NCBI RefSeq assembly: GCF_039555535.1
Contig: NZ_CP154630.1
Coordinates: 4,415,001 to 4,479,000, forward strand
DNA: 64,000 bases
From: Stenotrophomonas maltophilia
GTDB lineage: Bacteria > Pseudomonadota > Gammaproteobacteria > Xanthomonadales > Xanthomonadaceae
Direction: 5' to 3'
Shown: positions 18,961 to 21,677 of the stretch, in pieces
Layout of the letters: every line of letters begins with the position of its first letter
Numbering within the stretch: the first letter of the stretch is position 1
The notes under the pieces: generated by a model
Told to the model about the DNA's origin: nothing
The model's database searches: none
What the model saw: the letters and a program-made list of their open reading frames with translations, nothing else
Made by a program: the position numbers and the translations under genes

Positions 18961-20436
18961 TCACAGGCCCTTGGCGGCCTGGGCGACGGCGCGGAACAGC
19001 GCGCGGCCCTTGTTCATCGTCTCGTCCCATTCCTTGTCCGGGTCCGAGTCGTAGACGATGCCGGCACCGGCCTGCACGTACAGGCGGCCATCCTTGATCA
19101 CCGCGGTGCGGATCGCGATCGCGGTATCGGCATCGCCGTGCCAGCCGATGTAGCCGATGCTGCCTGCGTACACATTGCGCTTGATCGGTTCCAGTTCGCG
19201 GATCACTTCCAGCGCGCGGATCTTCGGCGCACCGCTGACCGTACCGGCCGGGAAGGTGGCGCGCAGCACGTCGGCGTAGCTCAGGCCCGGCTGCAGCTGC
19301 CCGGTCACTTCGCTGACGATGTGCATGACGTGGCTGTAGCGTTCGATCACGAACTGCTCGCCCACTTCCACGGTGCCGGCCTTCGAGACGCGACCGGCAT
19401 CGTTGCGGCCGAGGTCGATCAGCATCAGGTGCTCAGCGCGCTCCTTCGGATCGGCCAGCAGCTCGGCTTCCAGCGCCAGGTCCTGCTCGACCGTGGTACC
19501 GCGCGGGCGGGTGCCGGCGATCGGGCGCACGGTGACTTCCCCATCCTGCAGGCGCACCAGGATTTCCGGCGAAGAACCGACCACCTGCAGGTCGCCAACA
19601 TCGAGGAAGTACATATACGGCGACGGATTCAATGCGCGCAGCGCACGGTACACATCCACCGGGCGCGCCTTGAACGGCACGCTCAGGCGCTGGCTCAGCA
19701 CCACCTGGAAGATGTCACCGGCGCGGATGTATTCCTTGCTGCGCTGGACCGCATCGACGAAGCCTTCGCGGGTGAAACCGGAGACGAAATCGGACTCGTC
19801 CAGCACGTCGCTGTTGAGCGGTGCCGGATAGCCCGCACCCGGCGCCCGCAGCTTGGCTGTCAGCGCATCCAGGCGCGCCTGCGCCTGTTCGAAGGCACCG
19901 TCGATACGCGGGTCTGCGTGCACGATCAGGTACAGGCGGCCCTTGAGATTGTCGAACACCGCCAGCTCGTTGGAGTCCAGCAGCAGGATGTCCGGGGTGC
20001 CCAGCTCATCGCGACCGGCCGGCGATGCCAGGCGCGGTTCGATGTAGCCGATGCACTCGAAACCGAACCAGCCGACCAGACCGCCAGTGAAGCCCGGCAG
20101 GCCTTCCAGCTTGGGCACCGAGTGGGCGCTGCGCAGCGCCTCGACTTCGGCGAACGGGTCGGCCACCTCGCGGGTGTCCACCACCTGCCCGTCCTCGCGC
20201 ACGGTCAGCGTGTGGCCGTGGAAGGCGTACACGCGGCGCGCCGGCAGGCCGATGATCGAGTAACGACCAAAGCGCTCGCCGCCTTCGACGGATTCAAACA
20301 GGTAGGTATTGGGGCCGTCGGCGAGCTTCAGATAGACCGAAAGCGGCGTGTCCAGGTCGGACAGCACTTCGCGGACAACGGGAATATGGGTGTGGCCTTC
20401 AGCGGCCTGCAGCTGAAACTGAGCGTGCGAGTTCAA
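18961..20436 (-). CDS. trpE: Anthranilate synthase component I
   Basis: 491 residues. Makes anthranilate from chorismate with TrpG. The feedback-inhibition segment near the N-terminus (LFESVEGGERFGRYSIIG) and the C-terminal chorismate-binding domain (PYMYFLDVGDLQVVGSSPEILVR, RPIAGTRPRG, MLIDLGRNDAGRVS, GTVSGAPKIRALEVI) are intact. The start is a TTG at 20436 with a strong GGAAGGAAA Shine-Dalgarno 7-8 bases upstream; the longer open frame has no such site. The leader holds a tryptophan-rich frame that overlaps this start (separate entry). Confidence 0.96.
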   Translation of the reverse strand: MNSHAQFQLQAAEGHTHIPVVREVLSDLDTPLSVYLKLADGPNTYLFESVEGGERFGRYSIIGLPARRVYAFHGHTLTVREDGQVVDTREVADPFAEVEALRSAHSVPKLEGLPGFTGGLVGWFGFECIGYIEPRLASPAGRDELGTPDILLLDSNELAVFDNLKGRLYLIVHADPRIDGAFEQAQARLDALTAKLRAPGAGYPAPLNSDVLDESDFVSGFTREGFVDAVQRSKEYIRAGDIFQVVLSQRLSVPFKARPVDVYRALRALNPSPYMYFLDVGDLQVVGSSPEILVRLQDGEVTVRPIAGTRPRGTTVEQDLALEAELLADPKERAEHLMLIDLGRNDAGRVSKAGTVEVGEQFVIERYSHVMHIVSEVTGQLQPGLSYADVLRATFPAGTVSGAPKIRALEVIRELEPIKRNVYAGSIGYIGWHGDADTAIAIRTAVIKDGRLYVQAGAGIVYDSDPDKEWDETMNKGRALFRAVAQAAKGL

Positions 20437-20548
20437 GACGACTTTCCTTCCGGGACACAGCGTTATGGGGGCGGACGACGGCAACGGGCCACCATCGCCA
20501 CCAACGGCGTGCGGAAGAAAGGGTATGCGGGGTCGTCAGGCTGGACAC
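20399..20548 (-). promoter_or_regulatory. Tryptophan-rich leader frame and possible SD-sequestering hairpin of trpE
   Basis: A frame open on the minus strand from a GTG at 20548 to a stop at 20399-20401 contains Trp-Trp-Arg-Trp-Trp, encoded by TGGTGGCGATGGTGG (20489-20503), 50-65 bases before the trpE start. It continues 38 bases into trpE in another frame. CTTTCTTCCG (20512-20521), just 5' of the Trp codons, can pair over 10 bases, with one bulged base, with CGGAAGGAAAG (20442-20452), which contains the trpE Shine-Dalgarno. There is no T-run for ordinary attenuation. The start codon of the leader frame is uncertain; the GTG has no spaced Shine-Dalgarno, and a weak promoter (TACAGT about 20560) would make it almost leaderless. 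Confidence 0.5.
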
Positions 20549-20655
20549 CCCTTGACTGTATCGCAGGATAGGCGGGAGGGGAACCCTGGGAAACTGAACC
20601 ACGGCAAGCACGGGGCCGGTGATGGGGGCTGTGGCGGCTACCGGCGCGGGAACCA

Positions 20656-20743
20656 GTAGAGTCGACTGTTAGTCGACTTGCGCGCGAAGCGCGGGGTTTT
20701 ACGTCGTCGGAACGAAAAGCAGTCGACTAACAGTCGACTCTAC
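20656..20743. repeat. 88-base GTAG/GTCGAC repeat, copy 1
   Basis: Arms GTAGAGTCGACTGTTAGTCGACT (20656-20678) and its exact inverse (20721-20743) flank a 42-base centre containing GCGCGAAGCGCGGGG. Two other 88-base copies lie at 24752-24839 and 47022-47109. The right arm forms the 3' end of the lipid kinase gene. The rest of the gap to trpE (20437-20655) holds the trpE leader. Confidence 0.92.
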
Positions 20744-21677
20744 CCCCCTGCCCGGCCAGCAACGGGCAACCGGCGGGCAGATGCATGCGCACCCGGCCCG
20801 CCACGCAGTCGATGCGGAACCGCTGGGCCTGCACCGGCTCGCCATCCAGATTGAGAGTCAACGAGCGCTGCGATTCGATCTGCAGCCACGGCAGCCGCGC
20901 GCGCGTGGCCAGCTGTTCCAGCGCCGCCTGGGTGCCGGACTTCAGCATCTGGCCAAGGGTGGCGGTGACTTCGCCTTCCAGCTCCGGAAGCACCGTCACA
21001 TCCAGCAGCCCATCATCGATCAGTGCCTGCGGGCACAGCTGCTGGCCGCCACCGGCCTGGCGACCGTTGCCGATGCCCAGGGCGATGAAGTCGCCTTCCC
21101 AAGCGAAGTCCGGCCCCGACAGGCGTGCGTTGATCGACTCGATGCGGCCGAGCTTGGCGATGCCGGTGATCACATAGGCCAGCCCGCCCAGCATCTTTTT
21201 CAGGCCGGCGTCGGTCTCCACGGTGACCTGCGTGCCGAAGCCACCGCTGGCGAGATTGGCGCACCACCACGGCGTGCCATCGGCGTCCACGCGCAGCAGA
21301 TCGATGGCACGCGGCGCGGTCTGCCCGATCAACGCGAAGGCCTCCTTCGGTTCGGTGGGAATGCCGGCGGCGGTGGCGAAATCGTTGGCGGTGCCCATCG
21401 GGATCAGGGCCAGCGAGGGCAGCGCATCGGCCGGTTCCTCGCGATGCGCCAGTGTTTCCGCGACCGCGCTGAGCGTGCCATCGCCACCAGCAGCAACGAT
21501 CACATCCACGCCGTGATCAATCGCCTCGGCCACATAGCGTTCGGCGTCGCCGTCCTCCCAGGTCACCCGTACTTCCAGCTGCACACCCTGCCCGCGCCAG
21601 TGGCCAACGGCCTCACGCAGGTCATCGTTGCCCGCGGATTTACCGTTGAGGATCAGGCGCCAGCGCGGGGTGGTCAT
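20727..21677 (-). CDS. YegS/DAGK-family lipid kinase
   Basis: 316 residues with the diacylglycerol-kinase catalytic fold: GGDGTLS (about residues 67-73), the GTANDFA loop (about 95-101) and a C-terminal beta-rich domain with LDGEPVQA. This matches YegS-like kinases that phosphorylate phosphatidylglycerol or related lipids. The ATG at 21677 is preferred over one 12 codons upstream. The last five residues (GRVDC) and the TAG stop are read from the 88-base GTAG repeat, so the native C-terminus has probably been replaced. The gene stands alone between two intergenic regions. Confidence 0.9.

Follow-up and report, generated by a model that had tools for sequence, protein, structure and literature searches.

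On the minus strand of the window (the whole stretch of 64,000 nucleotides of Stenotrophomonas maltophilia DNA that was analysed) lies a trp cluster made up of trpE, a gene for a SIMPL-domain protein and then genes with Pfam domains of trpG, trpD and trpC. The SIMPL-domain gene (PF04402, 18114-18893) sits within the cluster between trpE and trpG and is carried on the same strand. Ahead of trpE we find a short open reading frame with a run of tryptophan codons, here called the leader ORF, which follows a -10-like box and ends inside trpE, and two segments that can pair with the trpE Shine-Dalgarno (SD) segment or with the bases adjoining the trpE start codon (Table 1). Further upstream, between a diacylglycerol-kinase-like gene and the trpE promoter, positions 20656-20743 hold a perfect 23-nt inverted repeat, GTAGAGTCGACTGTTAGTCGACT, whose arms lie 42 nt apart; its half-element has 58 matches in the genome compared with 0 for a reversed control, and we take the repeat to resemble the GTAG-type REP elements of Stenotrophomonas.

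Table 1. Features of the trpE leader region in the window, with the basis for each.
Feature	Position	Strand	Basis
trpE, anthranilate synthase component I	18961..20436	(-)	TTG start at 20436; PF00425 (E 1.5e-94), PF04715 (E 3.4e-26)
-10-like promoter box TACAGT of the putative trp leader mRNA	20555..20560	(-)	TAnnnT, 6 nt before the leader start
Leader ORF, begins VSSLTTPHTLSSARRWWRWWPVAVVRPHNAVSRKESRLELARSVS	20399..20548	(-)	GTG 20548-20546; stop TGA 20401-20399 inside trpE
GACGAC arm, can pair with GTCGTC by the trpE start codon	20532..20537	(-)	Long-range helix when the window leader is folded
Anti-SD arm TTTCTTCCG	20512..20520	(-)	Lies within the 6-bp window that pairs best with the SD in its group; swap and recoding tests
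Trp codons TGG TGG CGA TGG TGG (W W R W W)	20489..20503	(-)	Read from the sequence
Trp-codon hairpin, 5' arm GGCGATGG	20492..20499	(-)	Pairs with 20481-20474
Trp-codon hairpin, 3' arm CCGTCGTC	20474..20481	(-)	Fixed-column pairing, consensus fold
SD arm CGGAAGGAA, pairs with the anti-SD arm	20444..20452	(-)	Pairing, swap test, fold model
GTCGTC partner adjoining the trpE start codon	20437..20442	(-)	Fold model, fixed columns
trpE codon 12 (GCT), whose T begins the leader stop TGA	20401..20403	(-)	GCT in 111/127 overlapping leaders

The Trp codons stand where a preliminary description of this DNA had placed them, at 20489-20503 on the minus strand, and four Trp codons in five were matched by only 1 of 20,000 first-order resampled leaders when any of the three frames was allowed. 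The same description had seen no good start codon for the frame, which does not hold: a GTG (20548-20546) is found directly after the box TACAGT (20560-20555). A strict promoter scan of the window returned no passing promoter for the trp leader.

For comparison we assembled 198 loci with trpE and its upstream DNA, namely the window locus, 23 loci from a named set of 80 (L004-L024, L050 and L068), 149 from a family search and 25 from a genus search, which together gave 182 distinct upstream sequences. The family search covered 150 of 198 genomes, the window included (30 loci taken directly and 120 fetched separately), and the genus search (91 genomes) added 25 new loci among the matches listed; Xanthomonas, Stenotrophomonas, Pseudoxanthomonas, Lysobacter and their kin are represented. 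A leader was called where an ATG or GTG opens an ORF with a Trp core and a TAnnnT box stands 4-11 nt before the start, and by this definition 142 of the 182 distinct regions carry a leader ORF upstream of trpE. Among the 40 rows with no called leader, eight have titles naming genera or a family that we take to lie outside Lysobacteraceae, L023 is titled only Proteobacteria, and in L161 and L188 a leader that the pattern missed appears by eye to be present. In a further set of rows with no called leader (L198, L210, L212, L219, L221, L222, L224-L226, L229 and L231), inspection by eye finds, roughly 25-45 nt upstream of trpE, a box resembling GGCATACT or GTCATACT, of which GGCATACT looks promoter-like. 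Most of these rows have no clear SD, which suggests that they either have lost the leader or retain an older form of trpE control.

The comparison also bears on how the leader begins. The gap between box and start codon, for which the search demanded a TAnnnT box and permitted 4-11 nt, is 6 nt in 85 leaders, 7 in 48, 8 in 7, 9 in 1 and 10 in 1, so that 133 of the 142 leaders have the box 6-7 nt before their start codon (ATG in 84, GTG in 58). At least three of the six -35 bases match at the right spacing in 78 of 123 cases, as against 38 of 123 at a control spacing. An SD-like core precedes the leader start in 2 of 142 leaders; among the 141 leaders for which a trpE start was called, 138 have such a core before trpE. 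From the spacing of the -10 box and the missing SD we infer that transcription starts at the leader start codon and that the trp leader mRNA is probably leaderless.

The Trp core is shared widely. Within their first 35 codons, 58 leaders have three Trp codons, 48 have four, 27 have two and 9 have one, so at least two are present in 133 of 142. The usual core in relatives is W-R-W(-W), with WRWWP the commonest form (n=85), and outside it the leader peptide differs between groups. CGA encodes the core Arg in 139 of 141 cases, compared with 18 of 1541 Arg codons in the trpE genes of 40 loci; three readings of this near-invariance remain, that CGA is a slow codon sharpening a stall, that it supplies a base of the Trp-codon hairpin, or that it preserves the ATG hidden in CGATGG. 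The hairpin itself is paired in 98.8% of cells in the alignment of the TTG-start group (the window's own) and is predicted there by consensus folding; in a swap test it has no cognate preference in any of three groups (z +2.7, -0.2 and +0.5). Five leaders (L007, L101, L117, L120 and L187) end W-R-W-(W/R)-(P/S) and then stop 41-49 nt before trpE, and these retain the Trp core with no trpE overlap.

Overlap with trpE and the leader stop codon

That the frame of the Trp codons runs into trpE had been proposed from the window, and it is indeed open across the trpE start and closes at TGA 20401-20399. The leader ORF continues past the trpE start codon in 127 leaders, and in 126 of these, which comprise 13 different leader lengths, its frame relative to trpE is the same. 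Leader start and trpE start are 91 to 139 nt apart, with 14 different distances, 13 of which share one frame. The stop lies +35 nt from the called trpE start in 103 of the 127 overlapping leaders (range 20-62), whereas 14 short leaders stop 41-61 nt upstream of trpE.

The leader stop is formed by the third base of trpE codon 12 and the first two bases of codon 13, and the choice of synonymous codon at this site is unusual. At codon 12, 111 of 118 Ala codons are GCT, compared with 39 of 198 in the rest of codons 2-30 (uncorrected for relatedness, Fisher p 4.9e-42; on 70 representatives, 3.1e-24) and with 81 of 1807 Ala codons in the trpE genes of 40 loci. The neighbouring codon 11, mostly Ala as well, is GCC in 108 of 127 and GCT in 9 of 127. 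A T occupies the third position of codon 12 in 118 of 127 overlapping leaders, 2 of 14 short-leader rows and 5 of 40 rows with no leader; a phylogenetic pair test of stop codon against overlap found a single independent pair when restricted to supported branches. The retention of a rare synonym at one site across the family, chiefly in rows with an overlapping leader, points to selection on the leader stop codon, and a selected stop in turn suggests that the leader is translated through the trpE start. The leader stop inside trpE thus appears, from these sequence comparisons, to be under selection. The preliminary description had noted the overlap with trpE but had missed that it, stop codon included, appears to be selected.

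Predicted pairing between the leader and the trpE Shine-Dalgarno segment

The two segments previously proposed to pair, CTTTCTTCCG at 20521-20512 and the trpE SD segment CGGAAGGAAAG at 20452-20442, are both present. Taken alone, the window sequence is only modestly striking in this respect: of 5000 resampled leader arms, 219 match its pairing with the SD, and folding of 20399-20560 gives ordinary stability (z -0.54). The case therefore rests on comparison, and both the Trp run and an SD-pairing arm are found in close and in distant relatives.

When leader arms and SD segments were swapped between 81 cluster representatives (140 of the 142 leaders fall into these clusters; L157, with no called trpE start, and one leader with no R-W pair were excluded), cognate partners paired better than exchanged ones with z -10.5 (0 of 5000 permutations), compared with z -2.9 to +3.5 for five windows shifted downstream; these swap p-values were computed without regard to relatedness. 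Within groups the same test gave z -2.7 (27 of 5000) for the TTG-start group, with control windows at +2.1 and 0.0, z -5.7 (0 of 5000) for the GTG/ATG-start group, with controls at +2.1 and +0.5, and z -1.6 for the short leaders, with a control at -1.8. Swapping the 5' leader against the start region gave z -3.5 (TTG), -2.6 (GTG/ATG) and -0.5 (short leaders). Synonymous recoding with the peptide held fixed (200 recodings per leader) placed the real pairing above the mean in 67 of 81 representatives, and in 24 of 25 of the TTG-start group, with only 22 of 81 real leaders beating 95% of their recodings.

Two alignments, A1 with 21 of 25 TTG representatives (L147, L180, L216 and L227 excluded) and A2 with 26 of 45 GTG/ATG representatives, were used for tests at fixed columns. 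Among all six-pair windows between leader and trpE start, the one with the most pairing is the anti-SD/SD window in both groups, with 0.95 of cells paired in the TTG group (first of 960 windows) and 0.77 in the GTG/ATG group (tied first of 1032). With structures taken from member sequences, 81.7% of fixed-column cells are paired in the TTG-group alignment compared with 34-58% after sliding, and 74.0% compared with 23-56% in the other alignment; the GACGAC/GTCGTC helix is paired in 66.7% of cells at fixed columns. Two-sided changes at the SD window are unremarkable: there are 0 in the TTG group, and the 11-14 of the GTG/ATG group fall below the 95th percentile of 18. Covariation at fixed columns does not rise above shuffles either (76-314 of 500 shuffles reach the observed values in the TTG-group alignment and 112-367 of 500 in the other), and RNAalifold on A1 and A2 returns the Trp-codon hairpin only, with two further pairs in A1, and no SD stem. 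In our explanation the register of the stem slides between species, so that fixed columns cannot follow it. The earlier proposal that the leader sequesters the trpE SD finds support in the swap and recoding tests and in the paired fractions, while fixed-column covariation, two-sided changes and consensus folds speak against it.

Proposed mechanism and its alternatives

We propose that a leaderless Trp leader overlapping trpE out of frame acts as a translational attenuator of trpE, a reading to which we assign a probability of about 0.7. Transcription would start at or next to the leader GTG, as judged from the -10 spacing, and ribosomes would load on the bare 5' end of the RNA. With tryptophan plentiful, ribosomes would pass the Trp codons, continue in another frame over the SD and start codon of trpE and terminate 35 nt into the gene; behind them, and on RNA free of ribosomes, CTTTCTTCCG and GACGAC would fold over the SD and the bases by the start codon. 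When charged tRNA-Trp is scarce, a ribosome would halt on the Trp codons, covering or splitting the 5' arms, so that no ribosome would reach the trpE start from upstream, the SD would be free and trpE would be translated. By our footprint estimate, a stop at +35 would put a terminating ribosome just clear of an initiating one, which would explain the position of the stop; in 24 of the 127 overlapping leaders the position differs.

Energy models are consistent with such a switch. In the window leader folded from its GTG, the SD and the bases adjoining the start codon are both predicted to be paired, and opening -14 to +3 is modelled to cost 15.1 kcal/mol on free RNA. The cost falls to between 4.6 and 5.6 kcal/mol with the ribosomal A site on the core's R or on either of its first two W codons. 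With the ribosome on the last Trp codon or just past it, the modelled cost is about 5 kcal/mol if spanning pairs are disallowed and 12 to 15 if they are allowed (5.5 and 12.1, respectively, for the last Trp itself). The suggestion that a Trp-stalled ribosome frees the SD is therefore borne out in the model for the first two Trp codons of the window, where the cost drops from 15.1 to about 5 kcal/mol. A scan of the window predicts that a ribosome with its P site anywhere on codons 5-17 opens the SD; since many ribosome positions do so, the response can be specific only through the sites at which ribosomes pause. Averaged over 70 representatives, the modelled cost is 11.8 kcal/mol for free RNA, 7.1-7.8 with a ribosome on the first Trp codon and 9.3 with a foreign 5' leader; free RNA costs more than the stalled state (no spanning pairs) in 67 of 70 and more than the foreign-leader state in 54 of 70. 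A Trp-stalled ribosome would only just reach the anti-SD arm in the GTG/ATG group, so that steric hindrance, not masking, would be needed there.

A fuller version, which we regard as an even bet, would have a family-wide regulatory ORF begin at nucleotide 1 of the mRNA, cross the start of its target out of frame and end at a selected stop about 35 nt inside; ribosome traffic and the SD fold would both repress trpE, a single Trp stall would relieve both, and the rare CGA before TGG would sharpen the stall.

It could instead be ribosome traffic itself that forms the switch, with out-of-frame leader ribosomes blocking initiation at trpE until a Trp stall halts them and with the stem of secondary importance. 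The very strict maintenance of overlap, frame and stop inside trpE speaks for this, as does a stem that varies in register and fails the fixed-column tests. Leader arms nevertheless pair with their own SD beyond what foreign leaders and synonymous recodings achieve, and the 14 leaders that end well upstream of trpE would send no traffic over its start, so we consider it rather unlikely that traffic is the main switch. A quite improbable alternative is transcription attenuation, in which transcripts would end within the leader or early in trpE, by an intrinsic or a Rho-dependent route, unless a Trp-stalled ribosome relieved the termination. Trp leader peptides are commonly held to act in this way in proteobacteria, and untranslated trpE mRNA could be a substrate for Rho. 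The window leader, however, has no terminator-like site, in line with the preliminary description, and such sites occur in 1 of 141 leaders where 8.5 are expected; the region does have three terminator-like sites, but these (20599-20739) are not part of the leader. An intrinsic terminator in the leader was accordingly rejected. In an Rfam search of 20300-20800 only four microRNA-family hits were returned, all far below gathering scores, at 20641-20755.

The ATG inside CGATGG offers another route, since it could open a second ORF that ends on a TGA overlapping the trpE start and feeds ribosomes into trpE. This ATG is present in 125 of 126 sequences and its frame ends at +1 of trpE in 82 of 125 (53 of 69 representatives); between core and trpE, stops occur in the ATG frame in 4 of 70 representatives compared with 17 of 70 for the trpE frame. 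Part of the TGA/start overlap is automatic, however, because the second codon of trpE also starts with A in 18 of 20 rows that have no leader. In 24 sequences, the window included (ATG 20497-20495), this ORF stops 29 nt before trpE, its frame being broken by a TAA in the window's close group; an SD-like core precedes the ATG in 4 of 127, and starvation would be expected to act in the wrong direction, which together make coupling through a second ORF highly improbable in our view. We give still less credence to the idea that the leader encodes an independently functioning small protein and exerts no control over trpE. A trans-acting Trp leader peptide has been reported in Sinorhizobium (excerpt of PMC7298713), but across groups the peptides here have only the W-R-W core in common, while frame, overlap and SD pairing are kept. 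A +1 frameshift from leader into trpE was set aside because trpE keeps an SD-like core of its own in nearly all leaders, and termination-reinitiation at the +35 stop was set aside as the main route because starvation would then be expected to lower trpE expression.

Other amino-acid loci of the same genome (HisG, KARI, PDT, PRAI and two homoserine dehydrogenase matches) were scanned for short ORFs rich in His, Thr, Phe, Trp, Leu or Ile/Leu/Val with a -10-like box 5-9 nt before the start. No comparable ORF was found at these six loci, a weak negative result, given that the start of the fused aspartokinase gene lies outside L264.

Relation to known attenuators

The classical trpL of enteric bacteria is a transcription attenuator (Rfam family Trp_leader). 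The leader described here resembles it in placing a peptide with Trp codons before trpE and differs from it in having no terminator, no Rfam match and an overlap with the structural gene. Proteobacterial attenuators are also said to have been the subject of a comparative study in 2004. The translational attenuation that we propose has its nearest precedents in the actinobacterial LEU element (see below) and in the rtpLP-rtpA (anti-TRAP) leader of B. subtilis, for which Chen and Yanofsky (2003, 2004; cited in PMC4027176 and PMC11255114) reportedly found that stalling at Trp codons exposes the rtpA SD. The B. subtilis leader peptide, with its consecutive Trp codons, governs how the gene behind it is translated, as is proposed for trpE here. 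The rtpLP leader has an SD of its own, targets a trp regulator and stops just before the rtpA SD, whereas here the target is trpE, the leader is apparently leaderless and the stop lies inside the target gene in 127 leaders. The translational attenuators of erm and cat involve a drug-caused stall and a leader that ends before the gene, unlike the shortage of charged tRNA proposed here; what they would share with the trp leader is a stalled leader ribosome that unmasks a downstream SD (see also the excerpt of PMC5118997).

Translation of AT responds to uncharged tRNA-Trp, according to an excerpt of PMC4027176. In the LEU element of actinobacterial leuA, as an excerpt of PMC1262725 presents it, Leu codons pair directly with the SD. 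The trp leader likewise combines a leader ORF that has a run of regulatory codons with predicted pairing to the SD of a biosynthetic gene; compared with the element as described in that excerpt, its proposed pairing arm (20520-20512) lies 5' of the Trp codons and its ORF overlaps the gene. Leader peptides have also been described for leu, trp and met genes of Campylobacter jejuni, with transcription termination proposed (excerpt of PMC3847290). The C. jejuni TrpL is similarly a short Trp ORF before a trpE operon in a genus outside the enterics; according to the same excerpt, unlike the leader described here, it has a single Trp codon and the leaders there were sought by their ribosome binding sites (PMC3847290).

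In literature titles and the starts of abstracts, no trpE Trp leader in this bacterial family appeared among the matches listed, a search that leaves most subscription papers uncovered, so that an earlier prediction is possible. We know of no amino-acid attenuator leader that overlaps a structural gene and in which a synonymous codon of the enzyme gene serves as the stop of the regulator. If our proposal is correct, it would supply a tryptophan control for the family, a regulatory ORF that apparently starts at the very 5' end of its mRNA, and an amino-acid attenuator in which leader and structural gene overlap and a synonymous enzyme codon is kept as the regulator's stop. Translational attenuation by leader peptides is already known from other systems; what would be new here is the apparently leaderless start together with the conserved overlap.
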